DNA of 39,116 nt from a virus: positions 1 to 39,116 of IMG/VR virus record IMGVR_UViG_3300017598_001828. One strand, given 5' to 3'. Below the pieces are notes generated by a model, which did no database searches, was not told where the DNA came from, and saw nothing but the letters and a program-made list of their open reading frames with translations. This document shows positions 1 to 38,881 of the stretch, one piece after another; the first letter of the stretch is position 1; every line of letters begins with the position of its first letter. The position numbers and the translations under genes are program-made.

Positions 1-495
1 ATGGCACTCAACATTGGCAAGGAAATCGCCGCGTTAAAACGGATGACGGTAACTGAACTGCGGGACAAACACATCGAAGTTTTCGGTGAGGAAAATCGAT
101 CCCGCCACAAAACATATCTGATCAAACGGATCGCATGGCGCATTCAATCGCAGGCCGAAGGCGACCTGTCTGAACGCGCCCGGCAACGCGCATTGAAACT
201 GGCTACCGATGCTGATTTACGAACAAGACCTCCGGACGAAGCTGCCACCAAAGGATCAGGTAATACCAAAACTGTGCCAGTTGTGATTGACCACGATTCC
301 CGATTACCCATGCCCGGAGCCATCATCACCCGCGAATACAAAGGCGAAACCATACAAGTGGCGGTTTTGCCCAAGGGATTTGAGTATGAAGGGGAAATTT
401 ACAAAACACTGTCAGCCGTAGCCAAAGCGATCACCGGGTCACACTGGAACGGTTTTCATTTTTTCAATCTTAAACGTAAAGGGAAAACGGCATGA
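1..495 (+). CDS. DUF2924 family protein, recombinase-associated
   Basis: A 164-residue basic protein whose C-terminal half (about residues 105-160, with the ITREYKGE and FEYEGEIYKTLSAVAKAITG segments) matches my recollection of DUF2924, a family usually found directly upstream of large serine recombinases. The N-terminal 70 residues are helical and charged. No enzymatic motif is visible and its biochemical role is not established; a DNA-binding accessory role in integration or excision is inference from the constant genetic linkage. The gene begins at the first base of the window, so its ribosome binding site and promoter lie outside. It overlaps the recombinase start by four bases (ATGA), implying translational coupling in one plus-strand operon. 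Confidence 0.82.
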   Translation: MALNIGKEIAALKRMTVTELRDKHIEVFGEENRSRHKTYLIKRIAWRIQSQAEGDLSERARQRALKLATDADLRTRPPDEAATKGSGNTKTVPVVIDHDSRLPMPGAIITREYKGETIQVAVLPKGFEYEGEIYKTLSAVAKAITGSHWNGFHFFNLKRKGKTA

Positions 496-2051
496 ACAAA
501 CAGAAGGAAAAACCACAGGCGATTCGATGCGCCATCTACACACGCAAATCAACCTCCGAAGGACTTGAGCAAGATTTCAATTCGCTAGATGCTCAACGCG
601 AAGCTGGCGAAGCCTACATCGCCAGCCAAAAACACGAGGGATGGCATTGCCTTCCCGAACGATACGATGATGGCGGGTTCACCGGCGGGAACATGGAACG
701 CCCGGCCATGCGACGTCTTATGACCGACATCGAAGAAGGCAGGATTGATTGTGTCGTTGTGTACAAGGTAGACCGCCTGTCTCGCAGCTTGATGGATTTC
801 GCCCGGATAATGGAGATGTTCGAGAAGCATGGCGTTTCGTTTGTCTCCGTAACGCAACATTTCAATACCACCAGCTCCATGGGAAGGCTGACGCTTAACA
901 TCCTTCTTTCTTTCGCCCAATTTGAACGTGAGATCATTTCCGAACGCACGAGGGACAAGATCGCAGCCACTCGGAAAAAAGGGAAATGGTCAGGTGGCAC
1001 GCCCATCCTTGGATACGATCTTGATCCCAACGCCACACGCCTATTGGTGAACGAAGAAGAATCCAAAATCGCACGATCCATATTTGACATCTACCTTGAT
1101 ACCCAGTCTCTAACCGAAACCATCAAAGAAATCGAGGACCGTGGTTGGGCTAATAAGCAATGGACAACGAAAAAAGGAAATGAACGCGGTGGCGGGAAAT
1201 TTGTCAGGAATACTCTGCGCCGACTTTTGAACAATATCCTGTACATTGGAAAAATATCTCACAAAGAGGAAATCTACGAAGGCGAACATCCCGCCATTGT
1301 TGATGCCGATATATTCAATCGCACTCAACGTCTTCTCAAACGAAACGGGCGCACCGGAGGCGGTCACGTTAGGAATCGATTCGGCGCACTGCTCAAAGGC
1401 GTCATTCATTGCGCTGCCTGCAATTGTGGAATGACACCAACGCACGCGACCAAGAACAAAACCAAACGCTATCGATATTATGTCTGCAATAACGCGACGA
1501 GCCGAGGCTGGCACAATTGCCCTGCGCCTTCCGTTCCCGCGCCGGAAGTCGAACGATTCGTCATCGAGCAAATCAAGTGCATAGGTAAGGACTCTGATCT
1601 TCTTGCCGAAACCATCGAAGAAAGCCGACATCAACGGCAGGACGCCATCAAGGATTTGGAAGCAGAAAACCGCACTTTGGATCGGGAGCTACGCCGCCAC
1701 AACGAGGCCCTGCGAAAACTGGTATCGGAATCGAGGCAGGACGAAATAGCAACGGATCGGATGGCAGATTTACAAGACAGCATCAGGACCAACGAACAAC
1801 GGGCCACGGAAATTCGTGACAAGATTATCACCTTGAGCCGGGAATTGGTGGATGCACAAGAAATCGCGCAGGCATGCACACTGTTCGATCCCGTTTGGGA
1901 AACGCTCACACCACGCGAACAGGCTCGTGTCCTTCGCCTGTTGATTGAGCGTGTGTCCTATAACCGAAGCGATGGGAATATTGCCATCACATTCCACCCA
2001 ACCGGAATCAAAACTCTGGCAGACGAACTCAAACAGGAGGCAATGGCATGA
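492..2051 (+). CDS. Large serine recombinase (phage integrase/excisionase)
   Basis: A 519-residue large serine recombinase. The N-terminal resolvase domain starts with AIYTRKST; the serine of TRKS (residue 20) is the expected nucleophile, and VYKVDRLSRS (about residues 90-100) and FAQFEREIISERT are typical of the fold. A recombinase domain follows (about 170-290), then a zinc ribbon with CAACNCG and a later CNN...NCP cysteine pair (about 305-345), then a long charged coiled coil (about 375-460). Such proteins integrate DNA at short att sites without host factors. An AAGGG sits 8 nt before the start. It overlaps genes on both sides by ATGA. As the only integrase in the window it presumably integrates this prophage; att sites cannot be located from one junction. 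Confidence 0.95.
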   Translation: MNKQKEKPQAIRCAIYTRKSTSEGLEQDFNSLDAQREAGEAYIASQKHEGWHCLPERYDDGGFTGGNMERPAMRRLMTDIEEGRIDCVVVYKVDRLSRSLMDFARIMEMFEKHGVSFVSVTQHFNTTSSMGRLTLNILLSFAQFEREIISERTRDKIAATRKKGKWSGGTPILGYDLDPNATRLLVNEEESKIARSIFDIYLDTQSLTETIKEIEDRGWANKQWTTKKGNERGGGKFVRNTLRRLLNNILYIGKISHKEEIYEGEHPAIVDADIFNRTQRLLKRNGRTGGGHVRNRFGALLKGVIHCAACNCGMTPTHATKNKTKRYRYYVCNNATSRGWHNCPAPSVPAPEVERFVIEQIKCIGKDSDLLAETIEESRHQRQDAIKDLEAENRTLDRELRRHNEALRKLVSESRQDEIATDRMADLQDSIRTNEQRATEIRDKIITLSRELVDAQEIAQACTLFDPVWETLTPREQARVLRLLIERVSYNRSDGNIAITFHPTGIKTLADELKQEAMA

Positions 2052-15200: not shown

Positions 15201-17216
15201 TTATGCCTCACCTTTCATTTTCACGCCGCCTCTGAATTCCTGAAGCGCAACACCGAAGTCGTGGTAGCCGCGCATTTGAATGCCCAGCACGTTGAAATCT
15301 GCGTCAGCACTTTCGACGGTCGGGCGTTGTTGACCGTTGAGGAATGCCACTTCAATGACCGGCATGTCGTTTGGTTCTGCGAGGACATACCATGCTTTGT
15401 TGCTTGACCCCGCGTACTGCGAGTTGGACAAGTAGCTGGATCGCATCACACGGAATTTGCCCGAGTGGGGATTGTTGGTGGGGTATTTGGATTTACTGGA
15501 ATTGCCATCCTCTCGCACCTCGGTGCTGTTCATCAGATTGGAACCCTTCACAAGAAGTGCGTTGGGCACCAGAAGAACAGCGGGAGATACGGCCAGCGGA
15601 TGCCCATCGGGATCAACAAGATCAAGGAACATCTGCTCGGCTTGAGTCAGACTATCAATGGCCAGTGCTGTGGCCGCTCCGTCTGCGTAGTTCTTGTTGG
15701 CAGCACTGAAAAACGATGCGTTGTTAAGGAAAGCATTCCAGAAAACATCATTAAGTTTCAATGCCGCGCCGCGACCCAATCGACGGGGAACGGCAGTCAA
15801 TGCGCCGAGATCATCGTTGATCAAATCGTGCCGAGTGAGGCTGAACATCCGACCATAAGTCTGCGCCTGATTGGTGTAGGCTTCTTCTCCGAGTTCGGCG
15901 TGTTTGAGTTCGCCATCGGGTCCAACCTGTTCGTACTGAAAGCCTCCGGTCAACCTGTAACTGGTAACCTGTTTGAAGTCGCGAACATTGCGAATGGCCG
16001 AAATGGCCCGCCATGTCGATTCAACTCCCTCGAAACCTTCCAAGAGAAACTTGTTGGCGACATTGGAAAGAATGCCGGGCAGGGAAAGCGTCGAAAAGGC
16101 TGCTTCCAAAACACCACGCATGTCGCTTCTAAAATTCCAGCCGGTGTATCCGCTCATGCGAGCGGCTTCGATCAGAAGCTCCTGCAAACCGATCTGGCCT
16201 TTAAATCGCTTGTCAGCGGCCTCCAAAACCTGATCGGAATATTTCTTGTCGATGTTTTCAAGACCGGCAGCCATACAGACTGCGGCTTCAAGCGTTTGAC
16301 CCGTGGGGGTATCCCCGTTGCCATTGATGGCGGGTGCTTGCGGACGCTCTGCCCGAAGGACAGCGAGTTCCGTTTTGGCTTCGTCCCATCCATCGGTAAT
16401 AGCCTGCGCTTCGATCTCGTCGTGCTTGCCTGCACAGACTTTTCGCACGGCGGCCAGACGTTTAGTTTCTACGGCTACTTCGGCGCGTATATCAGAAACC
16501 ATGTCCGGTTGATTGTCCGTGTCGCCTGTATCATCAGCATCGACAGATTTATTTTTCTGAGCCTCGTACATGGCCTTGAGGCTTCTTGATTGTTCTTCTT
16601 CAAGATCCGCAAAAACGAATCCTTGAGCTTCTACCCATTGTTCGAATTCCATATTGATTGTCTCCATTTCTTTGTTGACGGCAGATGCCGCGATCCGTGC
16701 GGACGTTTCATCGTCCGCGCCCAATGCCACAAAACTGACTTCGCCCAGCGTGGCTTTACGGGCGACATAAACCGGACCGTCAAAGACGCGTCCATTTGCT
16801 TTTGCTTGTTTTCCTTCCGGTACGAACATCACCTTTTGCACCACGGCACCGATAGATGCCTGCCAAGGAAATCCGTTTTCACTTGAAGCAATGACTTCCT
16901 GCGCGACTTGTCCGGCACCGGAAATAACACCGGCTACTTTCAACGTGTCGTTTTCTTTGTTGACCGAATCTGTGTGTCCGACAATCAGGCTCGAACGGTG
17001 GTCTTTAAGAATCGGACGGCTCTTGGCCGAAATCTTCAGCCCCTTCAAATCCACAATGACGGGATAGGGCCAACCAGCCAAGACCATGGCGTCGCCTGTG
17101 TAGGCGGTCATGGTAAAGCGGCGCAACTTCTTTTCTTCGCCTTCAGCGGCTTCAATATTCGACCAGCCGCTAACGGCTGCACGAATCTCAAGCGGTTTGG
17201 CTTTGTGTTTTTTCAT
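15201..17216 (-). CDS. Prohead protease fused to major capsid protein
   Basis: 671 residues starting at MKKHKAKPLEI (GAGGAAAAAGAAG upstream). Residues about 30-185 form an S78-like prohead protease: KDHRSSLIVGHTDSV with candidate His73, and WQASIGAVV with candidate Ser121. A charged linker (about 190-310; EEEQSRSLKAMYEAQK) is scaffold-like. From about 325 onward the HK97-fold capsid follows (AAVCMAAGLENIDKKYSDQ; YTGWNFRSDMRGVLEAAFST; FSLTRHDLINDDLGAL; AWYVLAEPNDMPVIEVAFLN). Such fused protease-capsid genes occur in several siphophages. An internal ATG at 16652 has GGAG nine bases upstream and could yield a separate 483-residue scaffold-capsid. It overlaps the portal gene by 29 bases. Confidence 0.9.
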   Translation of the reverse strand: MKKHKAKPLEIRAAVSGWSNIEAAEGEEKKLRRFTMTAYTGDAMVLAGWPYPVIVDLKGLKISAKSRPILKDHRSSLIVGHTDSVNKENDTLKVAGVISGAGQVAQEVIASSENGFPWQASIGAVVQKVMFVPEGKQAKANGRVFDGPVYVARKATLGEVSFVALGADDETSARIAASAVNKEMETINMEFEQWVEAQGFVFADLEEEQSRSLKAMYEAQKNKSVDADDTGDTDNQPDMVSDIRAEVAVETKRLAAVRKVCAGKHDEIEAQAITDGWDEAKTELAVLRAERPQAPAINGNGDTPTGQTLEAAVCMAAGLENIDKKYSDQVLEAADKRFKGQIGLQELLIEAARMSGYTGWNFRSDMRGVLEAAFSTLSLPGILSNVANKFLLEGFEGVESTWRAISAIRNVRDFKQVTSYRLTGGFQYEQVGPDGELKHAELGEEAYTNQAQTYGRMFSLTRHDLINDDLGALTAVPRRLGRGAALKLNDVFWNAFLNNASFFSAANKNYADGAATALAIDSLTQAEQMFLDLVDPDGHPLAVSPAVLLVPNALLVKGSNLMNSTEVREDGNSSKSKYPTNNPHSGKFRVMRSSYLSNSQYAGSSNKAWYVLAEPNDMPVIEVAFLNGQQRPTVESADADFNVLGIQMRGYHDFGVALQEFRGGVKMKGEA

Positions 17217-18639
17217 CTTCTTTTTCCTCTGATTCTTCTTGCTGTGAGCTTTCGGATTCGGGCAAACCGAGTTCACGCATCAGTTCGATTTCTTTGGCGC
17301 GCTGGTGAAGTTGAGTTTCCCAGTCCTGGCCTTTGCGAGCGTATTCGTCTGCCAGCGTGGTGGTGTGACTGGACAGCCTCGTCGCCTGCGCGTTGGCTTC
17401 TTTGGCCGGATCGACGTGTTCGTGTCCGTCCCAAAACCACTGGTGAGGCCATTTGGAATTCACCATGCGCAGGGTCTGCGGGAGAAACTCGTCAATCAGG
17501 ATCGCTTCGCGCATCCATGCGTTGAGTATTCGATCCAGCACTTTGGCATTGAAGCGAGCTTGATCGACACGGATCGATTTGAAATAGGTCTGGTGATCCA
17601 ATCGCCCGGAGGCGTAGTTGTAGCCACTGGAATTTCCGGCAGCGACATTGAATGGCATGTTCAGACAACGTGCAATTTCGTTGAGAATTTCGTGTTTGAA
17701 TTCCTTATATGTAGTGGCGGGTTGTTCGGCTTTGACCTGTCCCATCTTCCATCCACCGGGCAAGGTTAAAAGCATGCGTTTTTCAAGCTCGATGATGTCC
17801 ATCGGTTCGACGGCATCGGCTTCGCCGTTGGCAGGCGCATCGGTATAAAGAATCCCGGCAAAGTCAGCGGCGGTTTCTGCGGCACCCAACACGGCCAGTG
17901 TGTAACGACGTAACTGAGCAAAAAGCGGAAGTGCAGGAGTCAGTTCGGGAATGCCACGGCTTTGGCCAGGTCGATCCAACTTATATAGATGAATAACGGA
18001 TTTAGCCGGAATGCGATCATAGTCCAATCCGAAGCTCCTGCTTCTTGAACCCGGATGCTCTTTGAGAATGTGGTACTCGACCGGGTTGCCCGCCGAATCA
18101 AAAATGATTCCATCCACGGCATTTTGATTTGCCGGGAACATATCTGGGGTTGTCACCTGATCGGCTTCGACCAGTTTGAGGTCAAGTTTGATGGGAGTAA
18201 TAATTTCGGGGTTGTTGGTCAGGACAACAAATGCCTCGCCGTCTTCGGCACAAGCTGCTCTTATGGCTCGAAGTTTTTCAGGAAGATCCACGACCTGTGC
18301 CCAGAGCATGAATTCATGTTCGATACGACGGTTACTTTCTGGGGATTCGGTCATCAGTTGCAAACGGGGGCCGGTTCCGACCACATCGTTGGCAAGAGTT
18401 GAAACGATGCCGCGTGCGTAGGAGTTGTTGGCGACTTCATAACGAGCGCGGTTTCTGAGAATCCGGCGAATTTCAGGAGAAGCGGCGGCATCAGCCGACA
18501 GTCCATCGGCGTTGGCCCAATGGCGGCGGTTGTCATCATTGGTAACTGCGGCGTCATAGCGACCACGCACGATTGGTAAATTGTCATTCGTGTTTCGTGA
18601 TTTGGGCGAAGCGAATATGTTTTTCAGCCAATTCAGCAC
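17188..18639 (-). CDS. Lambda-family phage portal protein
   Basis: 483 residues from a GTG start (GGGAG eight bases upstream). It shows the lambda gpB-like pattern: RGRYDAAVTNDDNRRHWANA near the N-terminus, RYEVANNSYARGIVSTLAND, AEDGEAFVVLTNNP, KLDLKLVEADQVTTPDMFP, and C-terminal GNSSGYNYASGRLDHQTYFK. The dodecameric portal is the DNA channel at the capsid vertex and docks the terminase. The C-terminal tail is acidic and Ser/Gln-rich. It starts within the stop codon of the preceding short gene (TAGTG). Confidence 0.94.
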   Translation of the reverse strand: MLNWLKNIFASPKSRNTNDNLPIVRGRYDAAVTNDDNRRHWANADGLSADAAASPEIRRILRNRARYEVANNSYARGIVSTLANDVVGTGPRLQLMTESPESNRRIEHEFMLWAQVVDLPEKLRAIRAACAEDGEAFVVLTNNPEIITPIKLDLKLVEADQVTTPDMFPANQNAVDGIIFDSAGNPVEYHILKEHPGSRSRSFGLDYDRIPAKSVIHLYKLDRPGQSRGIPELTPALPLFAQLRRYTLAVLGAAETAADFAGILYTDAPANGEADAVEPMDIIELEKRMLLTLPGGWKMGQVKAEQPATTYKEFKHEILNEIARCLNMPFNVAAGNSSGYNYASGRLDHQTYFKSIRVDQARFNAKVLDRILNAWMREAILIDEFLPQTLRMVNSKWPHQWFWDGHEHVDPAKEANAQATRLSSHTTTLADEYARKGQDWETQLHQRAKEIELMRELGLPESESSQQEESEEKEDEKTQSQTA

Positions 18640-18836
18640 TACGAAGCTCCCGGCGGGACAAGTTTGGACATGCCGATGCCCAGTCCCTTTTTCTGCACGG
18701 CCTTTTTGGAGTTGAGATAGCGATTCGCTTCAATTTGGTCTTTGAGGGAGTGCTGTTCCATCTCACCGGAATCACCACGGACCCGTTTGGGGCCTTTGGC
18801 GTTCTCTTCGATGGTGTCTTCGATGTCTTCCGGCAC
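18639..18836 (-). CDS. Short protein in gpW (head-tail connector) position
   Basis: 65 residues from GTG at 18836, chosen because GGGAG lies six bases upstream; the in-frame GTG at 18860 has no ribosome site. The N-terminal half is acidic. The C-terminal half (LKDQIEANRYLNSKKAVQKK and IGMSKLVPPGAS) resembles the short proteins found between terminase and portal in lambdoid phages. gpW is suggested by position, not by a clear sequence match. The two-part leader element at 18861-18895 lies 24 nt upstream of this start. Confidence 0.62.
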   Translation of the reverse strand: MPEDIEDTIEENAKGPKRVRGDSGEMEQHSLKDQIEANRYLNSKKAVQKKGLGIGMSKLVPPGAS

Positions 18837-18860
18837 GGCGTTCTCCCGTAAAGCGACCAC

Positions 18861-18895
18861 AATTGGCCGTCTACGAGTTACTTACCCGGTCGATT
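18861..18895. promoter_or_regulatory. Leader element copy B: inverted repeat with conserved loop
   Basis: AATTGGCCG and CGGTCGATT flank a 17-base loop. Read on the minus strand it contains CCGGGTAAGTAACT, three variable bases, then AGACGGC, identical to the element at 30331-30375. It ends exactly 24 nt before the GTG start of the connector-position gene. On the plus strand all nine arm positions pair, with two G-U; on the minus strand those two become A-C mismatches. Function unknown. Confidence 0.6.
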
Positions 18896-18959
18896 CATGA
18901 AGTGACGAAGGCGGGGAAAGATTGTTACGCATCTAGAACTTGAGATGGAAAATAGGTCT

Positions 18960-19130
18960 TCAGGCCACTTCCTCGTAGGTCGTGACCCGCCGACCGCAAT
19001 GACGGCATTCTCGCCGTCTAAGTAGACGATTCCCATGGGCAGCGCGGGTGTAAAGCACCCGAAAGTGACTACAACCGCACTTCGGGCATTCCAAACCTTT
19101 CTTTTCTTCTTTTTTTTTGGTTTCAGTCAT
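18960..19130 (-). CDS. NrdR-like zinc ribbon small protein
   Basis: 56 residues. It has CPKCGCSHFRVLYTR, then LLRRRECRHCGRRVTTYEEVA. The two CxxC pairs plus the R-R-R-E-C, CGRR and TTYE order closely match the zinc ribbon at the N-terminus of NrdR, the nucleotide-sensing repressor of ribonucleotide reductase. The ATP-cone domain is absent, so it cannot act as NrdR does. It may be a DNA- or RNA-binding accessory of packaging or a small regulator. The start overlaps the terminase stop (ATGA). The ribosome site is weak, so coupling is likely. Small zinc ribbons beside terminase genes occur in other phages. Confidence 0.82.
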   Translation of the reverse strand: MTETKKKEEKKGLECPKCGCSHFRVLYTRAAHGNRLLRRRECRHCGRRVTTYEEVA

Positions 19131-21397
19131 CACCGTTGTTTTCTTTGCAGAGATGAAAGTTTGACCCGTTCACGTTTTGCCGAAGATTTCACATCAGTGC
19201 CCGGCAGCACCGAGCCTTGGATGGATGCGGCTACGGCACAGCCGACGAGACAATCGAACCAGTGATTGTCGGTCTGCTCTGGACGAATTTTCCATTCATC
19301 CACGGTTCGTCCGCGTCCTTCTGTCTTCACCCGATATTCGGCAGTAAGTTGATCGGACAGAAGACGGTGGGTGTCTGCTTTTTTACCAAAAAGCGACAGG
19401 CATCCTTTATCACCGATGGCCACGGCAAGACGGGTGTGGATGAATGATTTCCAGTAGTTGGTGTCGTAAACGGCATGACGGATGGCACGTTTGCCCGCCA
19501 CGTTAGGTATGCGCCAATTGTGGCCGACGCGATCACCACGTTTGCGTTTGTATTCTGAAAATGGAATGGACGATGCGCCAACGAATCGACCATGACTTGG
19601 CAAAAGAATGGCCGCATGATTTGATTGACGACAGAACTGGTAAACCACATCGGTGGACGATCCCCAGTTAGCGTCTACAAGACATTTTCCAATTTTGACA
19701 TAGGCACCATCGTCACGCCGCCATTCACGAGAAAGATAATCGTTCGTGAGTTTTTCAAGACCGGCATAGATAGATCCTTCAAGACCCGCGCCTCGTGCTT
19801 TGCTGGCCAAGGTTATTCGAGAATCCCGCAGTGTGAAGTAATTCCGTTTCTGGTCAGGGTAGGTTCCATAATCGACAACATATCCGGTGAAGTCGTCTTC
19901 CCATGCAACCACCACGAAATAGAGAAGTTTCTGCTGCACGTCGATAAACATGGTCAGGTGGTTACATCCAATGGCCACTTCTCTGCGTTTGATGCCGTTG
20001 GTCTTGGCGGCGATTTCATCTGCGGTGAGTAATTCACCGTCCCCGATGTCTTCGGCCAAGGGCTCGTTTTGGTATTCAGCCCAAAACGCCGCCTCGTTTT
20101 GAAGTTTAAGATTCATGGCATGCTGGATGGCACTGACCTCATCATGGTTGAATCGTTCCGGCCACGCGACTTCCGCACCTTCATCCATTTCATTGCGGTG
20201 TTTCACATAGAATTCGGTCGCTACTTTGATCCCTTGTTCAGTTCGCAAGCTCTCGGCACGGATATCTGCGTATTCTTCCCATAGCTTTTCGTTCTTGGGA
20301 AAGCTGTACATCATCTTGGTGCGTTCGCCTTGCCACTGAGGATGTTTTTCCCGGTCAAGAATGCAGTCGGCCATGTCATCAGGGCGAATAACGGTGCAGG
20401 GCATGATGCCACTGATCTTTTTACCGGGTCCTGCCAGACCGAGAACGGCACCGGCAAGGATGCTTTCACGATGAGCGCATTGAGATGGACTGCGTGCGGA
20501 TTCATCAGTCTGCGGGTCATCCAGAATAACAAGCGAAGGCCGCACGCTTTTACCGTCTGCCCGTTTGTATTTCATGCCACGAATTCGACCTGTGATTCCG
20601 GCAACCTTGATTATTGCACCCGATGCTTTGCTTTCTGGAACAGTCGGCAGGATGATCTCGCGTGCTGTCCATCCGATATGCGTGCGTTCGCCTTCGAGTA
20701 ACTGGCCGTTGGCCCGGTGTGCGATGCCTTCCAGGCAATGAATCGGAAACACCGCTTCGGGAAAATCTTCAAGAAGCAGATCGTTGCTTTCCATTTCAGT
20801 TTTGAGGCTGTCGAGCATATCAAGGGCATGCCCCTCGTTTGATCCGATCAGACACACAAACTCACGATGTCCGTACAGGATCGCCCAGAGACAGGCGCAC
20901 TCGGCTAATGTCGTCTTGCCGCTTCCGCGTGGCATTGCCATGGCGAATAGCCCACCGTGAATGACAGCCTGTTCTATTTTGGCGATCACTTTCAAATGAT
21001 CCGGCGACCATGCCAGATCAAAAGTTAATGGGAAGTACGTCTCACAGAAAAAACAAAAGTCTGTCGATGCTTTTTCTTTTCTTTCAAGATTAACGACCGC
21101 AGGGATATCACCGATGTCTCGACCGCTTTTGGAAAGCGCGGCGTTTCGTGCCCGCGCCTGTTCTTTCATATCCTCGTAACCACCCAAGGGTTCTTCCGCT
21201 TGAGGGGCATAACGAAGATCAGTCAGCCACGCCGTATAGCGGAAAAGATCAACGGTGGTTCCGTCTCCGATTCGAAACCCGGCCCGTGTGCGATGACGAC
21301 GCAGTTGTCTCTCACTGATCACCTCACCAAACGGCGTTGAGTTCAGTAGACGCGCAATATCGGAGGGTCTTAACTTCTTGGGATCAATCGCGGCCAC
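19130..21397 (-). CDS. Phage terminase large subunit
   Basis: 755 residues from GTG with AAGGAG upstream. Residues about 8-60 form an added HTH-like domain (RPSDIARLLNSTPFGEVISE...VDLFRYTAWL). The ATPase follows: Walker A PRGSGKTT at about 156-163 and Walker B LVILDDPQ at about 289-296. The nuclease half begins near LTMFIDVQQ (Asp about 486). It packages phage DNA into the prohead using ATP and cuts concatemers. No separate small subunit is recognised; the N-terminal extension or the 66-residue protein upstream may substitute. It overlaps that upstream gene by 14 bases. Confidence 0.92.
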   Translation of the reverse strand: MAAIDPKKLRPSDIARLLNSTPFGEVISERQLRRHRTRAGFRIGDGTTVDLFRYTAWLTDLRYAPQAEEPLGGYEDMKEQARARNAALSKSGRDIGDIPAVVNLERKEKASTDFCFFCETYFPLTFDLAWSPDHLKVIAKIEQAVIHGGLFAMAMPRGSGKTTLAECACLWAILYGHREFVCLIGSNEGHALDMLDSLKTEMESNDLLLEDFPEAVFPIHCLEGIAHRANGQLLEGERTHIGWTAREIILPTVPESKASGAIIKVAGITGRIRGMKYKRADGKSVRPSLVILDDPQTDESARSPSQCAHRESILAGAVLGLAGPGKKISGIMPCTVIRPDDMADCILDREKHPQWQGERTKMMYSFPKNEKLWEEYADIRAESLRTEQGIKVATEFYVKHRNEMDEGAEVAWPERFNHDEVSAIQHAMNLKLQNEAAFWAEYQNEPLAEDIGDGELLTADEIAAKTNGIKRREVAIGCNHLTMFIDVQQKLLYFVVVAWEDDFTGYVVDYGTYPDQKRNYFTLRDSRITLASKARGAGLEGSIYAGLEKLTNDYLSREWRRDDGAYVKIGKCLVDANWGSSTDVVYQFCRQSNHAAILLPSHGRFVGASSIPFSEYKRKRGDRVGHNWRIPNVAGKRAIRHAVYDTNYWKSFIHTRLAVAIGDKGCLSLFGKKADTHRLLSDQLTAEYRVKTEGRGRTVDEWKIRPEQTDNHWFDCLVGCAVAASIQGSVLPGTDVKSSAKRERVKLSSLQRKQR

Positions 21398-28897: not shown

Positions 28898-29695
28898 TTA
28901 CAAATAATCCAGCGTTCGTACGGCCTCGTAGCCAGTGGGCCATTGGTCTGAGTTGCGGCATTCCTTGAGCCGTGCGATGGCTTCCTCGTTTTCTTTTTGC
29001 GTGAGTCCAAGCACGTCTTGGCCGATCACCCAAACGCCACAGCGGAATGGTTCTTTCTTTTCAACTGCAATCAGATGAACGGGTATGCATTGGCCGATAG
29101 CGACGGCCAGAACAGATCGGTAAAAAGCAAGTTGATGGACGTATCCATAGCGTCTGGCATCGGCTTCAAACCAAGTCATGTCATCGCAGGTTTTCAAATC
29201 CACGATGCCATGTTCTGGATGAAACCAGTCCATACGGATTTGGCATTTGATGTCTTGATAGTTCGTTCGGACGACACCTTCGGGCACGCCATCGGCCAGA
29301 AGATTCATGGCGATTTCGTGTTTGTGAACGCCTTCAGCCATATTGGTAATCAAGGCGTATTGAGAATCTGTTAAGACGGGTTTGCCTTGAGCAGTTGCCC
29401 ATTCACCGTAAGCCTTCGTGTTTGATCCGTAGGGTTTTCCGGTCTTTGAATTGATGGGCCCACCAACGGCGTATTCAGAATCAAAAACATCCGATCCTTC
29501 AAGAATCAGGGTGTGCGCTGCACGTCCGACAACATAGGCCGGGCGATCTTCATCGGGGATGAGTCCGAGAATCTTCTTTAGATATAGCTGTGGGCACTTT
29601 CTGAAATTGCCAAGCTGGTGGCTGCTCAGATTTTCTTTTGCCGATGCATGATACTTTTCGGCGGGTTCTGTAATAAGAAAGGAAGTGTCGATCAT
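28898..29695 (-). CDS. PD-(D/E)XK exonuclease (RecE/DUF3799-like)
   Basis: 265 residues starting at MIDTSFLITEPAEKYHASAK with the ATG in the previous stop (ATGA). It has SSHQLGNFRKCPQLYLKKI, RPAYVVGRAAHTLILEGSDV and the catalytic block HGIVDLKTCDDMTW, the D-x-K core of phage RecE-like nucleases. YVHQLAFYRSVL and IHLIAVEKKEP-type strands complete the fold. Such exonucleases chew 5' ends so that the annealing protein can pair the strands. A short in-frame extension upstream lacks a better ribosome site. Confidence 0.86.
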   Translation of the reverse strand: MIDTSFLITEPAEKYHASAKENLSSHQLGNFRKCPQLYLKKILGLIPDEDRPAYVVGRAAHTLILEGSDVFDSEYAVGGPINSKTGKPYGSNTKAYGEWATAQGKPVLTDSQYALITNMAEGVHKHEIAMNLLADGVPEGVVRTNYQDIKCQIRMDWFHPEHGIVDLKTCDDMTWFEADARRYGYVHQLAFYRSVLAVAIGQCIPVHLIAVEKKEPFRCGVWVIGQDVLGLTQKENEEAIARLKECRNSDQWPTGYEAVRTLDYL

Positions 29696-29985
29696 TTCGA
29701 TCCCTCCTTGACTGGCACCCACGTCATGCTGTTACGACCAGTGATTCGGCAGGGACGAACGTCATCATTTCTTACAAGACCCGCTTCACGAAGTTCTGGA
29801 AGTCGCCGTGATGGAACATGGCGTTCCAAACCTGTCGCCTTGGCGATCTCCGCAGCGGTTTGGCCGGGATGGTTCAGTACTTCCTGAAAGCAGATGGCAC
29901 GTTGTCCGCTTGCACGACCGCTGGCTTCCGCTTCTCGTGCGGCTTCATGTGACGTATGTGGATCTGTTTTTCGGGCACGGGCCAT
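29692..29985 (-). CDS. Small winged-helix DNA-binding protein
   Basis: 97 residues starting MARARKTDPHTSHEAAREAE; the ATG three codons earlier is rejected because it directly abuts AGAGGA, while the chosen ATG has nine-base spacing. A winged-helix follows: QTAAEIAKATGLERHVPSRR and LRELREAG-like LPELREAGLVRND, ending in a WVPVKEG wing. The N-terminal DPHTSHEAA motif recurs in small phage proteins of this type. It is probably a regulator or replication accessory protein. It overlaps the exonuclease start by four bases. Confidence 0.75.
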   Translation of the reverse strand: MARARKTDPHTSHEAAREAEASGRASGQRAICFQEVLNHPGQTAAEIAKATGLERHVPSRRLPELREAGLVRNDDVRPCRITGRNSMTWVPVKEGSK

Positions 29986-30000
29986 TGATTGCATTCCTCT

Positions 30001-30306
30001 TTACGCTGAAATTTCTTCTGATTCAGGGATAGGCGCGGTGTCCGCATGGCACACGCTGAAAGATTCCTCGCCGAATTCGCGGGTGATAAAGCCCGTAAAA
30101 ATGCGGCAGATGTCTTTGCCCACGGCAGCGGATGCATCAATAACACAGGTGTGCTTGGTGGGTTCCAGACAATAGGTCGTGTCCAGACGCACTCGGGATT
30201 TTCCGTGCAGTGATTCCACGGCCAAGACGGCCAGTAAAAGGGAGTTTTCAATTTCCCTTATGGGGACATCTTGATCAAAAACGTATTTGTAGATTAGTTT
30301 GCTCAT
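30001..30306 (-). CDS. Small conserved phage protein, function unknown
   Basis: 101 residues with AGGAG eight bases before ATG. It has IYKYVFDQDVPIREIENSLL, AVLAVESLHGKSRVRLDTTY and ASAAVGKDICRIFTGFITRE segments and an acidic tail (ESEEISA). The fold looks alpha/beta and no catalytic motif is seen. I recall similar small proteins in replication regions of prophages but cannot name a family. The leader element at 30331-30375 lies 24 nt upstream of this start, marking it as the first gene of a possible new transcription or translation unit. Confidence 0.65.
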   Translation of the reverse strand: MSKLIYKYVFDQDVPIREIENSLLLAVLAVESLHGKSRVRLDTTYCLEPTKHTCVIDASAAVGKDICRIFTGFITREFGEESFSVCHADTAPIPESEEISA

Positions 30307-30330: not shown

Positions 30331-30375
30331 TTTGCCTCTCGCCGTCTTTAGTTACTTACCCGGCGAAGAGGCAAA
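30331..30375. promoter_or_regulatory. Leader element copy A: long inverted repeat with conserved loop
   Basis: TTTGCCTCTCGCCG and CGGCGAAGAGGCAAA form a 14-bp stem with one bulge around a 16-base loop. Read on the minus strand it contains CCGGGTAAGTAACT, two variable bases, then AGACGGC, matching the element at 18861-18895. It ends 24 nt before the ATG at 30306. It follows the sigma-factor gene by a few bases. No T-run is next to it, so it is not a simple terminator. Confidence 0.65.
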
Positions 30376-30389
30376 CCGACGAAAATGGC

Positions 30390-30977
30390 TTAGAGGTATT
30401 CCCCAAGCCCTTTGTCTTCAAAAAGAACACGCAAACGTTGAATGGGTGCGTATAGCGATGTGCGTGGTACGCCGAGTTCACGAGCTGCTTCCGCAATGGA
30501 ATCCGTCCGCGTCAGAACATCCACAAGCTGTTTTTGATCAGAAGGCAGACCAGATATGATCAGCGACAAGTCAATCTGAAGATCAACGCGCTCACTTTTC
30601 GGGCGGCTGTGCTTCCCTGATCTCAAGTCCTGCTCATCCTGGCTAATCGTGCGTACACGTTCGACCATCTGGCCGTTGTCAGCCTTCATGTATTCATTGA
30701 GAGAGCAGTCGTTGCGGCGATAATCCCGAAGCTCCGTTTTTTGATGACGGATAATCTTTGAGATCTTTCTTTCAACAACGCGGGCGATAAAAGTGCTGCG
30801 CTTTGCAATGTTGGCGTCGTATTTCGCCATGCGCTCTGAGAGATCGTGCGTCATCTCGCTGGTCAGATCGTCCACATCACTTCTTGTGAACCCGTACTTC
30901 CCGATGAGTTGGTGTGCTTTACATTTGATAAGTCGCCTCGCGTAATCGTCGAGGTCTTGCATTCGCTTCTGTGCCAT
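30390..30977 (-). CDS. Phage sigma-70-like RNA polymerase sigma factor
   Basis: 195 residues from ATG with AAGGAG seven bases upstream. A region 2-like part (about 10-90) has IGKYGFTRSDVDDLTSEMTH and STFIARVVERKISKIIRHQK; a region 4-like HTH occupies about 145-190 (SLIISGLPSDQKQLVDVL; SIAEAARELGVPRTSLYAPI). It probably redirects host RNA polymerase to phage promoters. An in-frame extension upstream would run through a hairpin and lacks a ribosome site. It is followed closely by the leader element copy A. The ECF-like size suggests a late-gene activator, but no promoter consensus is proven. Confidence 0.78.
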   Translation of the reverse strand: MAQKRMQDLDDYARRLIKCKAHQLIGKYGFTRSDVDDLTSEMTHDLSERMAKYDANIAKRSTFIARVVERKISKIIRHQKTELRDYRRNDCSLNEYMKADNGQMVERVRTISQDEQDLRSGKHSRPKSERVDLQIDLSLIISGLPSDQKQLVDVLTRTDSIAEAARELGVPRTSLYAPIQRLRVLFEDKGLGEYL

Positions 30978-34179: not shown

Positions 34180-34899
34180 TTAAAACAGACCGGGGTCGGG
34201 CTTCTCGGTCTTAATCAACCCGAGTCCGATCAAATGAATTTGCATTGCTTGTCCCGACACTTTGAATTCTGCCGCCATCTCACGAGCGAAATCAACCGTG
34301 GGTTGGGCATCGTCGGCAAGGCCCCATTTCGCCGACAGATCCTGAATTTCATCAGTAGCCACGTAGGCTTCCAAACGACCGTGATGATCGACCCACATTT
34401 TGCAGACCATTTCCTCCGGCATGAGCAAATAACCCGCAAACTGGTCAGCCTGCCATTCGATAGGTTCCTTTGTGATACTTCGGCAGACTATGGATGGTTC
34501 GGGCTCCTCGTCGAATAGAATCCCTTGGCCGGGATCTCCAATGAATTGATGGCGGTGCAAATCCCAATGGCCAAGTTCGTGGGCGACCGTGAAACGGTAA
34601 CGGCCTTCTTTCATAGGATGAATGGTTGGATCGAGGGATTCGTCAATGAGGACCTTCTTGTCACGAAACCACGTCGCACCGAGAACATTGGGCAACCCCA
34701 ACAGGTTCGATAGATTGTCGAATGAAAAATCGACTTCAAGATGCGCTTCCAGTATTTCTTCGACGGGAATGGGGGGAGCCGTGATCTGCTCGTACTTTTT
34801 CCCGTATTCGGCCAGCAGTTTCAGCGTGGCCGCTTCAATATGTTCTTTGGGTAGGAATTTAACTTTCTTTGTCATCCGTCGGGCCTCGGAAGCGATCAT
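34180..34899 (-). CDS. ImmA/IrrE-type zinc metalloprotease
   Basis: 239 residues if started at the ATG coupled to the repressor stop (TGATG). A start nine codons later (MTKKVKF) has a better GAGG site and is equally possible. HELGH at about 107-111 with EWQADQFAGYLLMP (Glu about 148) forms the zinc site of the IrrE/ImmA family. In phages and ICEs such proteases cleave an XRE repressor after DNA damage to trigger induction. The preceding XRE gene is the natural substrate, so this pair is probably the lysis-lysogeny switch. Confidence 0.86.
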   Translation of the reverse strand: MIASEARRMTKKVKFLPKEHIEAATLKLLAEYGKKYEQITAPPIPVEEILEAHLEVDFSFDNLSNLLGLPNVLGATWFRDKKVLIDESLDPTIHPMKEGRYRFTVAHELGHWDLHRHQFIGDPGQGILFDEEPEPSIVCRSITKEPIEWQADQFAGYLLMPEEMVCKMWVDHHGRLEAYVATDEIQDLSAKWGLADDAQPTVDFAREMAAEFKVSGQAMQIHLIGLGLIKTEKPDPGLF

Positions 34900-35264
34900 C
34901 AGGATCGCTTTTTCATTTTCTTGGTTAGTTTTTCAAGATCCTCTGCGGTTAGACCTTGCTCTCGCGCAGTGCGCAGCAGGTCAGCCATGGCTTTTGGTTG
35001 CTCCTTGATGATTTCATTCAACTCCGGATCAACACGACCTGCCAGTGCGAGTAACTCGTCCGCATCGACTTCAAGCAGTTCGGCCATCTTGATGATCTTT
35101 TCAGGCTTCGGGGGATCAAATTCTCCGGTTTCGACTTTGCTTAGAAAGGTGGCGCTGATGCCAACAGCATCTGAAAATTGGCGAAGAGAAAACGAAGGAT
35201 CAGTTTTTCTTTTTGCCTCTCGAAGCTGACGTATGCGCTTTCCGAATTTTGGGTTTCCAGCCAT
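34899..35264 (-). CDS. XRE family repressor (lysogeny regulator)
   Basis: 121 residues from MAGNPKFGKRIRQLREAKRK; an in-frame ATG four codons earlier is possible but has AGG directly adjacent to it. The HTH is at about 25-70 (SLRQFSDAVGISATFLSKVE; FDPPKPEKIIKMAELLEVDA). A charged C-terminal helix (KAMADLLRTAREQGLTAEDLEKL) may dimerise the protein or be recognised by ImmA. Its promoter overlaps a perfect palindrome, so autoregulation is likely. It heads the long leftward run of genes and is the likely maintenance repressor of the prophage. Confidence 0.86.
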   Translation of the reverse strand: MAGNPKFGKRIRQLREAKRKTDPSFSLRQFSDAVGISATFLSKVETGEFDPPKPEKIIKMAELLEVDADELLALAGRVDPELNEIIKEQPKAMADLLRTAREQGLTAEDLEKLTKKMKKRS

Positions 35265-35287
35265 GCTTGGTTTCATCCTATGTTCAG

Positions 35288-35326: not shown

Positions 35327-35499
35327 TACTTTTTTTAAATCCAAAACCAGTACTGTTACCACCTTTTCGATAGTCAAATCTTCCTTCTTCTGATATAAAA
35401 CTAATAAAAGCAGTTAGTTCAAGCCTTGCGTCTGCAACTATAGCCAGATTGCCACGTATTTTTGTGTCTGAATCAGATCAGAGGTTTTGGGAGAGGCGA
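35327..35499. other. AT-rich intergenic region before HNH nuclease gene
   Basis: No gene is supported. A TTG-initiated extension of the nuclease at 35449 lacks a ribosome site. The stretch is AT-rich and must hold the rightward promoter of the HNH gene, but I see no pair that I would defend. It marks the composition change from phage core to the restriction-modification cassette. Confidence 0.5.
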
Positions 35500-36564
35500 A
35501 TGTCTAGCATAAAATTTGGCGACAATAAATGGTCTGAAGATCAGTGGCACGCACTGCTTCAAAGCCTTATCGATTCTCAACTTCTATCCTGGAAAGAAAT
35601 CACAACACTCTGTTTGGGTCACATGAACCCATCTCAAGTGGGAACAAGCCTTGCCTCTTCAGAGGGATTTAAGAAACGCTATGGAAAAGGCAACACCATG
35701 CGTGTCGTTATGAAATGGTTTTATGAGCAAGCTGGAGCATGTGTTGATTGTGGAACAAGGTTTGAGCTTCAGGCTGATCACAGCAAGCCTCGTGAAAGCT
35801 ACTCCGATCCATTAGATGCAGATTTTATTGAAAACATGGTTCTTAGGTGTCGTCGCTGCAACGTAATAAAAAGGCCTTCTCACCTTTTTGGTGGCAACAC
35901 ACACTTAACAGCTGAATCAGCTCTGATGTGGATCCTTTTCACCTTTAAGCCAAGAACATTAAAAGATTTTATTCGTTTCTGTAGATTATACGGAATGACA
36001 ATGGCCGACATTAGAATGCAAGAGGGATGGGCGATGGCTCACTGGCTTCAACATGCAACAGATTACTCGATGGATATCGACACGCTTGACACAGCTTCTT
36101 CGATATTTCTTTGGCCAGATGGTGCAATAACAAGGGCCTGGCCTTCAGATCAAATTGATGGCGCAGTTGAATTATACAACAGCATCGATTCAAATTATCA
36201 TTTTGCATTTGTTGCTTCAATACCGATAGAGAATGATCGCCATAGGATGACATTTTTTAGAATACCAATAAGTGAGATTCCTTTTTCTCATTACTTTGTC
36301 GGTGGGGAATGGCCGAATCAGAGCTTGGCTATTTCGTATAGTCCACCAAAGCGAAACTCAGAAGAAAATGATAAACCTTCAATTTTACCACTGCCTCCTC
36401 GCTCAATGAAATTGCATGCTCACAAAGCTTTTGACAGTTCATCATCAATAAAATTGAGCTTTGGAACTAAACTTAAGCAGCTAGAAACAAAGAAAAGAGT
36501 GAAGATTGCCGATCTGACATCCAAAGAGGTAGAAGGACTTACCGTTTCTATTGAGTTGGTGTAG
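35500..36564 (+). CDS. HNH endonuclease, putative restriction enzyme
   Basis: 354 residues from ATG at 35500 (GGGAGAGG upstream). The HNH nuclease at about 80-122 has CVDCGTRFELQADHSKPRES with the zinc pair CVDC, the catalytic His in ADH, Asn at about 112 and the second zinc pair CRRCN. The C-terminal 200 residues (FIRFCRLYGMTMADIRMQEG; FAFVASIPIENDRHRMTFFR) are probably for target recognition. Convergent to a DNA methyltransferase with a 17-base overlap of their 3' ends, it is most likely the nuclease of a type II restriction-modification system. The cognate site is unknown. Confidence 0.82.
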   Translation: MSSIKFGDNKWSEDQWHALLQSLIDSQLLSWKEITTLCLGHMNPSQVGTSLASSEGFKKRYGKGNTMRVVMKWFYEQAGACVDCGTRFELQADHSKPRESYSDPLDADFIENMVLRCRRCNVIKRPSHLFGGNTHLTAESALMWILFTFKPRTLKDFIRFCRLYGMTMADIRMQEGWAMAHWLQHATDYSMDIDTLDTASSIFLWPDGAITRAWPSDQIDGAVELYNSIDSNYHFAFVASIPIENDRHRMTFFRIPISEIPFSHYFVGGEWPNQSLAISYSPPKRNSEENDKPSILPLPPRSMKLHAHKAFDSSSSIKLSFGTKLKQLETKKRVKIADLTSKEVEGLTVSIELV

Positions 36565-38881
36565 AGGATGAATGGTCTTCAAAAGACAATAATTCTTGCT
36601 GTTCAGAACTGATTGCCCGCTTGCGTATATCAAGACCCAACGTGCAGTATTCCATGTTCTTTTCAATTTGAATAGAACTTAACCCTCTTTCTTCTGCGAA
36701 CCTACCCGTCGTTAAACTACCTGCATACGGATCTAATATCACACAATCAGAGGTCAAAATGTTGATAAGTAGCCCAGGGATTTCATCTGGAAATGGTGCT
36801 GAATGACCATGAATATTTTCCCCTCGAATCATTTTAATCACTGGTTTGGCTCGAATAAATGTAGGAAAGATTTTATTATTGGAATTTTTCCTTTTTAATG
36901 CTGTCGGTTTCTGGAAAACTAGAATGTGCTCCCAACAGTTAAATGGAGACTGATAGTAGGGACTGAAGTTGCCGGCATTAAAACCTCTCTTTCCTTCAAT
37001 CTCTCCTTTATCCCAAACAATGTTTCCATAGAGATTGAATCCCACCCTTCGAAATGCGTCAACAATGTATGCGCTTAAGATCATTCTTTTTTGGCCCATT
37101 GCAGAAAAAACTATCGAATTTTCGTTGTCAAAATAATCAAATATGTTGAATAGGTAAAAAGATCCAGGTTTTAGGATCTGCCAAACACCTTTTGCAACAT
37201 TAAACATGTCATACAGATAGCAATAAATGTTGGGCCATTGTGTGTATTCTCTAGCATTGTAATAAGGTGGTGATGTTACTGCGCCGTCCACGCTATTGGG
37301 CTCGAGGTTAAAAAGAACATCGAAAGAATCACCGCAAAACACTTTAAAGTTACCGTCATTAACCTGAGACATAGATTTGTGTTTTTTAGCTTTAGGTCTC
37401 TCAACCAGATATCTATTAAATAACGCAGCTTTTTCAAAAAAAGCGTCTTCTTTTCTGAGCAATAATTTGTTGACGACAGCATTTCTTCCAAACGTGCATT
37501 TTGGACTGGAAACATTAAATAAGTGAATCGCATCTCTACTAAGAGAGTAATGCTGGATTAACATTTTGATTACTTCGTCAAGATTTTTGTTATATTGCAC
37601 GTCTCTTGACCATGCCCTCACCTGTGATGAAGCAATGCTATTCTGAGGATCATCAATCGCTTGTTGCATAAGAATGGATTTAAATGAATATCGCTTGCCC
37701 CGATTGTATTTACTTCGATCGGGACAAAGGCGATTTTTGCATTCCCAACTTCTGACCCCTAGAGTTGGATACGAATTCCCTTGAACATTTTGACTTCGAC
37801 ATTTTGGACAAGGTATTAAGGTTTCGTCGCGTTCGTTTTTTTGAAACAATAACAATATAGTCGGTTCATTTTTTACATCATCTGAGGTTTTGAAAAATAC
37901 AAAGCAGTCCTTGTAGAAAAATCCTTCATTTGCTTTTTCAAAAGCTGCATTTTTGGTGTCAATATTTTTAATGTATGAAGATGTTATTTCTCTAATTTCG
38001 TTTTCTCTAAAATACGTTTTTTTGAGAGAGCGTTCGCGATGTTTTTCGCTAAATAATGTTAAGTCTGACGCAAGTTCCCATTGAATAGATTTTTTAGAAC
38101 TATCTGTTATGGGCTCAATAATAATTGCTAAGTGGCCATAGTTGTTAATTCGCTCATATGCATTTCTAACCCAAAAGGCCAGCTTATTACGAAAACGCTC
38201 ATAAGATGTTCTGCGAGTCAGCGTTGGTGTGATCCTAATAATTTCCAAAGAATCATTTCTGCTAAACAATTCTGGATGTCTAGCATGCAATTCATCCCAG
38301 AAGGCTGGCTTGTAATTGTCGCTAGTGAATTCAGGATCAAAAAATCCATGCATTTCTTTTTCCGACAAAGAGCAATAAAGAAACGCTGCAAATTGCGATT
38401 CTAATATTTCTCGACTGATGTTTCTTCCATTCTGAGGTTTTCTTAATTTAGACGGGCCCTGACATTCGTTTTTTATGGTCTGAATAGAATCCTTTTTAGA
38501 GTAAGGATCAAAGTTCTGAAGCAGCTCATGTTTAATTTCTTTTCTGTCAACCGCAGCGTCTAAAACATTTTTAAGGCGTGGTTTTGAAGAGTCGTCATAG
38601 GCAAGTTGAATTTCTCTTTTTTCGTGATAATTGAAAGTGAATCCAGATATAGCAGCGAGTTTATAGAAGTTTCGTAACGATTCTGCATTAGTTCTAAACT
38701 TCCAATTAACATGTGCTACAAAACGATTGTGTCTGGTCCTTCTAGATAGGAGTTTCTTTTCCTCTAAGTATTTACACAAAACACTTACATCGTTCAAAAA
38801 TTCATGGCTGAAATCTGTTTTAATTCCCAACAAATCTTCAAACTCTGAAATAAGTTTGTTCGAAATTTTATTTTTGTTCAT
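36548..38881 (-). CDS. SPPY-type DNA methyltransferase with large N-terminal domain
   Basis: 777 residues, far longer than a lone beta-class methyltransferase. Residues 1-345 are AT-codon-rich and unassigned (HNRFVAHVNWKFRTNAESLR; LAIIIEPITDSSKKSIQWEL). A C4 zinc finger lies at about 358-386 (CPKC...CKNRLC). The methyltransferase follows, with GAVTSPPYYNAREY at about 533-546 (motif IV, SPPY as in N4-cytosine enzymes) and VILDPYAGSLTTGRFAEERG at about 714-733 (motif I variant), giving beta-class order. It should protect host and phage DNA from the convergent HNH nuclease. The N-terminal part may add target recognition or another activity. It overlaps the RHH gene upstream by 14 bases. Confidence 0.84.
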   Translation of the reverse strand: MNKNKISNKLISEFEDLLGIKTDFSHEFLNDVSVLCKYLEEKKLLSRRTRHNRFVAHVNWKFRTNAESLRNFYKLAAISGFTFNYHEKREIQLAYDDSSKPRLKNVLDAAVDRKEIKHELLQNFDPYSKKDSIQTIKNECQGPSKLRKPQNGRNISREILESQFAAFLYCSLSEKEMHGFFDPEFTSDNYKPAFWDELHARHPELFSRNDSLEIIRITPTLTRRTSYERFRNKLAFWVRNAYERINNYGHLAIIIEPITDSSKKSIQWELASDLTLFSEKHRERSLKKTYFRENEIREITSSYIKNIDTKNAAFEKANEGFFYKDCFVFFKTSDDVKNEPTILLLFQKNERDETLIPCPKCRSQNVQGNSYPTLGVRSWECKNRLCPDRSKYNRGKRYSFKSILMQQAIDDPQNSIASSQVRAWSRDVQYNKNLDEVIKMLIQHYSLSRDAIHLFNVSSPKCTFGRNAVVNKLLLRKEDAFFEKAALFNRYLVERPKAKKHKSMSQVNDGNFKVFCGDSFDVLFNLEPNSVDGAVTSPPYYNAREYTQWPNIYCYLYDMFNVAKGVWQILKPGSFYLFNIFDYFDNENSIVFSAMGQKRMILSAYIVDAFRRVGFNLYGNIVWDKGEIEGKRGFNAGNFSPYYQSPFNCWEHILVFQKPTALKRKNSNNKIFPTFIRAKPVIKMIRGENIHGHSAPFPDEIPGLLINILTSDCVILDPYAGSLTTGRFAEERGLSSIQIEKNMEYCTLGLDIRKRAISSEQQELLSFEDHSSSTPTQ

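Follow-up and report, generated by a model that had tools for sequence, protein, structure and literature searches.

ECF (group 4) sigma factors such as SigH of Mycobacterium tuberculosis are two-domain proteins comprising regions 2 and 4, and they combine a rigid spacing between the -35 and -10 elements with base-specific contacts of sigma4 to the -35, the -35 being read by a helix of region 4 and the -10 by region 2 (PMC6411747). Sigma factors encoded by phages and controlling phage genes are also known, namely gp28 and gp34 of SPO1 and gp55 of T4 (PMC9429907), and in T4 the late promoters of gene e and I-TevI are embedded in hairpins (PMC3014915). The locus described here shares features with each of these systems. 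It encodes a two-domain ECF-like sigma with a rigidly spaced pair of putative promoter blocks, and we infer the same division of labor between regions 4 and 2; the -35 of one lineage (prophage G003), GGAAAC, resembles the GGAAYA of SigH. Unlike SigH-type factors, however, the present sigma is encoded by a phage, its predicted promoter lies directly 3' of its own gene and again before the structural genes, the -35 is mostly CGNCA and the -10 is GGGTAAGTAAC-like. As with gp28, gp34 and gp55, the sigma would redirect host RNA polymerase to phage promoters, but SPO1 and T4 are virulent phages, which infect Bacillus and E. coli. As at gene e and I-TevI, the promoter at one of the two sites lies inside an inverted repeat, whereas a general role of that repeat in masking ribosome sites is not supported here.

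The DNA analyzed (the window) is an IMG/VR record of 39,116 bases, considered at its full length. Relatives of its terminase large subunit reside mostly in planctomycete genomes, and the source is therefore most likely a temperate phage of Planctomycetota. The phage carries a serine-recombinase integrase (492-2051, plus strand) and a repressor-like gene (34899-35276, minus strand). Site 1 has a sigma-like gene upstream and recombination and replication genes downstream: the first gene 3' of the site (30001..30306, minus) encodes 101 amino acids without a family match, and a MarR/HTH-like protein and then a DUF3799/RecE-like nuclease (28898-29994) follow it. The gene types found 3' of the equivalent copy in related phages resemble those in the window. 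Site 2 is flanked by the terminase large subunit gene (19130..21397, minus; PF20454 and PHROG terminase), which served as our query for relatives, and by a small gene with a GTG start (18639..18836, minus), whose relatives have homologous MAEDLDNTI-type starts. The portal gene (17188..18639, minus; PF05136, E 1.5e-61) and the capsid and tail genes come next. Between the terminase and site 2, at about 18961-19110 (minus), we read by eye a small zinc-ribbon-like frame (CPKCG...CRHCGRRVTTYEE), and a similar frame, again by eye, occurs at locus L031. Elsewhere in the window, a 371-amino acid frame with an HNH-endonuclease match (35449-36564, plus) is oriented against most genes, and a 777-amino acid protein (36548-38881, minus) has a C-terminal N6/N4 DNA methylase domain behind a long N-terminal part without assignment.

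A preliminary description of this DNA had pointed to a two-part motif at both sites, and we find it there: CCGGGTAAGTAACT on the minus strand at 30363-30350 and 18889-18876, followed by AGACGGC after 2 nt at site 1 (30347-30341) and after 3 nt at site 2 (18872-18866). The 14-mer by itself is as unremarkable as was said, with 2 matches in the window against 1.36 expected when 3 mismatches are allowed. What had been overlooked is a -35 half, TTCGTC[A/G], 15 nt upstream of the -10 at both sites. At site 1 the -35 block is TTCGTCG (30377..30383, minus), assigned by a matrix and by its distance from the -10 block, which relatives keep at 15 nt; the -10 block, GGGTAAGTAACT (30350..30361, minus), lies 28 nt past the stop codon of the sigma gene, and its first G covaries with an Arg of sigma region 2.4. 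At site 2 the matrix places the same -35 variant, TTCGTCA, at 18903..18909 (minus), and the -10 block, again GGGTAAGTAACT, occupies 18876..18887 (minus) between the terminase and portal genes, a position shared by more than 15 terminase relatives. The two-block matrix was built from relatives with a training set that includes both window sites, which scored 26.4 bits (site 1) and 28.8 bits (site 2). The next best position in the window reached 15.0 bits and the best in 20 triplet-shuffled windows 19.6, so that the matrix revealed no third promoter above shuffle level in the window. The spacing of exactly 24 nt to the start codon, as originally reported, holds for the intervals as they were drawn but not from other interval ends: the first G of GGGTAA is 55 nt from the start codon at site 1 (ATG, 30306) and 51 nt at site 2 (GTG, 18836), and the corresponding distances from the end of AGACGGC are 34 and 29 nt. 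AGACGGC is part of a weaker conserved stretch that directly follows the -10 and plausibly represents the transcription start region. This weak third block, with TAG at +14/+15 in 24 of 52 sites against 0-2 in control windows, probably marks where RNA starts; transcription would begin about 12-16 nt downstream of the initial G of the -10.

The sigma gene (30390..30977, minus) encodes 195 amino acids from its ATG (MAQKRMQDL...) within a frame that is open up to 31088. The PHROG match of the protein is to a sigma factor, and profile searches returned RpoE/SigE/FliA. Sigma70_r2 was detected by Pfam in 25 of 26 family members and Sigma70_r4_2 in 6, with further HTH models in more, and the family thus has region 2 and region 4 without region 3, which is the ECF-type layout. 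The window protein itself scores 18.4 bits against Sigma70_r2, below the curated Pfam cut-off of 24; we regard it as a divergent ECF-type member, an assignment made through its relatives and profile matches. In the first alignment these relatives were 39-46% identical to it. An AlphaFold model (mean pLDDT 84) gave top fold matches to the ECF factors SigE, SigH, SigL and AlgU, which were weak (best E 7.7e-3, low global TM), and the poor global superposition probably reflects a two-domain arrangement that is not fixed. In the model R89 (numbered in a 207-amino acid frame; R77 from the ATG) belongs to the final helix of region 2 (residues 72-95), and the final helix of region 4 (185-200) contains Tyr188. 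As a single query the window sigma retrieved no relatives from viral contigs, and a family alignment was required to collect them. No clear homologue was present among 50,697 phage records; the sole match in annotated phage records was to a Wolbachia phage (HQ906663.1, 8902-9312, minus; 23% identity, E 8e-4). Four sigma homologues (G711:C163, G592:C66, G970:C134 and G970:C75) contain a single in-frame TGA and are either decayed genes or affected by sequencing errors.

The proposed check of related phages for the motif bore out its recurrence, with a module found after sigma genes and again between terminase and portal. The exact two-part form is lineage-specific: GGTAAGTAACT-N1-4-AGACGG gave only two matches across viral contigs, both inside unrelated genes. 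Among about 160 terminase-related loci, on the other hand, more than 15 phages have the core GGGTAANNNAC directly 3' of the terminase, with the same small gene behind it. Several phages proved to contain GGGTAAGTAAC two or three times when whole records were searched, as a rule at intervals of 11-15 kb, and one of these copies is directly behind a sigma homologue. When copies were aligned on GGGTAA, an upstream block of TCCGACA, TTCGTCA or CCGCCA appeared at a constant 15 nt in early and late copies alike, and in the G003 prophage GGAAACA occupied the same distance. Third promoter copies on the opposite strand were seen before a ParB-like gene (G003:C3:13445, minus; L166) and before an excisionase-like gene (G004:C1:1908, minus; L169). 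Around half of the recovered sigma relatives have the module 20-48 nt past the stop codon or overlapping the 3' end of the gene, and behind diverged sigma genes the module is kept while the -10 drifts to GGTATGTAATA, GCGTATATAAAT or GCATAGGTAACC. We also scanned 120 nt around the stop codon of 81 sigma genes with the -10 matrix alone, using 81 stretches inside the same genes as controls. A site was found at 42 of the sigma genes and in one of the control stretches, and with sites placed in this way the -35-like block emerges at a constant distance; the remaining half or so of the sigma genes had no above-threshold site within the 120 nt scanned. The spacing of CGAC to GGGTAAGTAAC in phage contigs had its largest count at 16 (14 cases), with counts also at 9 and 19 nt in viral contigs that may include redundant sequences. 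A terminase-portal copy matching the sigma-linked one was not found for phages in G402, G404, G414, G293, G268 and G368. One contig (IMGVR_UViG_3300029258_003713, L183) has two tandem sigma genes of the family, and behind each lies a different promoter variant, GGACA/GCATAAGTAATA in one case and TCCGACA/GGGTAAGTAACC in the other. The stretch CGGGTAAGTAAC resembles CGGGTGAGTAAC, a conserved stretch of 16S rRNA; this resemblance was set aside because the motif has become GTATGTAATA and GCGTATATAAAT in relatives.

Early and late copies from the same phage agree in the blocks far better than copies from different phages, identity within versus between phages being 0.89 versus 0.61 for the -35 and 0.97 versus 0.77 for the -10 (permutation p about 1e-5), values that carry a bias in that some late copies were located using the early motif as a guide. 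Restricting the comparison to pairs found without the block under test gave 0.90 versus 0.59 for the -35 (2 of 720 permutations) and 0.96 versus 0.49 for -10 bases +5..+11 (1 of 24 permutations). Variants common to the early and late copy include GGGTAGCTCTCC in G042, GGGTAGGTCAA in G397, GCGTATGTAGCC in G341, GGGTCTTTATCC in G373 and GGGTAATTGAC in G002, where for G341 and G373 the two copies are on different contigs and a common prophage is assumed. Covariation was examined in 38 non-redundant sigma-site pairs, comparing all protein columns with 42 DNA positions. The strongest pair joined the region 2.4 residue (R89/R77 of the window protein) to the first base of the -10, with Arg accompanied by G in 33 of 33 cases and Glu by C in 5 of 5; L189, L190 and L205 are examples of sigmas with Glu. 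Residue and base each change at least 3 times on a sigma tree built without the tested columns. The association held in sigma genes from other genome samples that were less than 75% identical to the training set and whose sites were placed without the first -10 base (Arg-G 37/37, Glu-C 5/5, plus one Lys-C). In region 4 the variable base of CGNCA follows the sequence of the recognition helix, PRxTx[Y/R]: helices with Tyr go with A, those with Arg with C, and those reading PRTTLN or PRT[ST]LY[AG] with T, with exceptions. Four to five independent pairs agree with the Tyr-A/Arg-C rule and none oppose it, although formal sign tests on independent pairs miss 0.05 because the pairs are too few, and the rule is looser in the held-out data (Tyr-A 7/8, Arg-C 4/9). 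Covariation of this kind indicates that sigma and site evolve together; transcription itself is beyond its reach.

These observations lead us to propose, with a probability of roughly 0.93, that the phage's own ECF-like sigma uses both sites as promoters, one for an early and one for a late operon. The earlier suggestion of a promoter for the sigma encoded just upstream thus receives strong support, drawn entirely from comparison of genomes: the sites recur with two blocks at a fixed spacing, placed before and oriented toward genes, they agree within a phage, and their specificity co-evolves with the sigma in a manner that extends to held-out genes. The sigma gene (30390-30977) would be transcribed first, from another promoter. 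Its product would then bring host RNA polymerase to a -35 of TTCGTC[A/G] (family consensus NNCG[A/C/T]CA) and a -10 of GGGTAAGTAACT, 15 nt apart, with region 4 presumably reading the former and region 2.4 the latter. Expression of the operon for replication and recombination, which immediately follows the sigma gene, would begin at site 1 and that of the portal-capsid-tail operon at site 2; in related phages, too, copies lie upstream of replication/recombination and portal-capsid operons, and some of these phages have a third copy. Binding and activation by the sigma, the order of expression and the early and late roles are what such an arrangement would predict.

Each copy of the motif had originally been drawn as the loop and inner stem of an inverted repeat whose outer arms differ but keep pairing, which was thought to favor structure. 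This description fits site 1, where the repeat (30331..30375, minus; arms 30375-30361 and 30344-30331, 14-15 nt) folds with -31.7 kcal/mol (z -3.3), but at site 2 the total folding energy is ordinary (z -0.2) and a hairpin is predicted downstream instead, immediately behind the -10 block, within or bordering the 5' leader (18845..18877, minus). Likewise, own arms outpair swapped arms at early, site-1-type sites (n=31, p about 5e-5), an advantage that terminase-portal sites lack (n=21, p=0.20); there it is the halves of the downstream leader hairpin that outpair swapped halves (p about 1e-4). An RNA element with an enclosing stem was accordingly rejected as a general reading, being true of early sites only. 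A cis-acting leader RNA, in which a hairpin with a conserved loop serves a phage regulator as a translational operator or as a nut/put-kind antitermination site, would account for this self-pairing, for the leader hairpin and for the location at operon starts. We nevertheless consider it very unlikely, since the block spacing is rigid at 15 nt while the pairing geometry differs between the site classes, late sites have one of the blocks ahead of all structure, and the bases covary with residues of sigma regions 2.4 and 4. Rfam provided no family match in the window, and at site 1 nothing beyond chance-level matches. The motif is best read as DNA rather than RNA, and a promoter alone leaves the inverted repeats and leader hairpins unexplained.

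One possible use of the repeat, in addition to promoter function and at site 1 only, is a switch like that of T4 gene e, in which the following gene has its ribosome site masked in RNA reading through from the sigma gene and exposed in RNA begun inside the repeat. Such a switch is suggested by the T4 precedent (PMC3014915), by the strong repeat around site 1 and in its relatives, and by the pairing of ribosome sites in a small number of relatives (G001, L186, L226). Yet across 28 early sites the ribosome site in the read-through RNA has a predicted accessibility of 0.35, compared with 0.37 when the 5' arms are shuffled, and at site 1 of the window the values are 0.21 and 0.22; these figures do not support masking as the general role of the repeat, and we judge a switch of this type improbable. 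The repeat could also serve as an operator for another DNA-binding regulator of the phage, which does encode the repressor-like protein noted above, and the neighboring sigma gene would then be a mere passenger. That the covariation singles out the sigma regions recognizing -10 and -35 in ECF factors, with matching residue and base changes and success out of sample, makes this highly improbable. Least credible, to the point of being negligible, is a chance repeat or mutual gene conversion between two intergenic copies: although about 1.4 occurrences of the 14-mer are expected by chance and spacers from one phage resemble each other somewhat more than spacers from different phages do (0.51 versus 0.38), the copies occupy the same two places in many phages and their bases track sigma residues. 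Within a phage the blocks are 0.89-0.97 identical and the spacer and flanks only 0.32-0.51, and this much lower likeness argues against simple gene conversion.

We found no description of the present sigma in planctomycete phages in the openly available journal literature searched. Phage-encoded sigma factors as a kind are already known; what appears to be new is an ECF-type phage sigma whose cognate promoters are linked to it and whose specificity code can be read. The promoter reading would supply a cognate sigma-promoter system for a large group of uncultured planctomycete prophages that have no characterized relatives among the phage records searched. A further gain is a natural set of paired sigmas and promoters whose base-by-residue recognition rules, Arg-G and Glu-C at the -10, are readable and directly testable. 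The expression program of these phages would become predictable from sequence. We advance more tentatively, as a possibility that is doubtful at present, that prophage sigma/promoter pairs diversify toward orthogonality, with co-resident prophages having different, mutually insulated codes. If true, this would amount to a self/non-self system at the level of transcription, encoded by a handful of residues of regions 2.4 and 4 together with their partner bases. Orthogonality of co-resident prophages is itself open to testing. One 7.4 Mb genome (G368) has four sigma homologues and 21 terminase matches, several of them fragments of a single gene; with its many co-resident prophage remnants, it is suited for testing promoter orthogonality.
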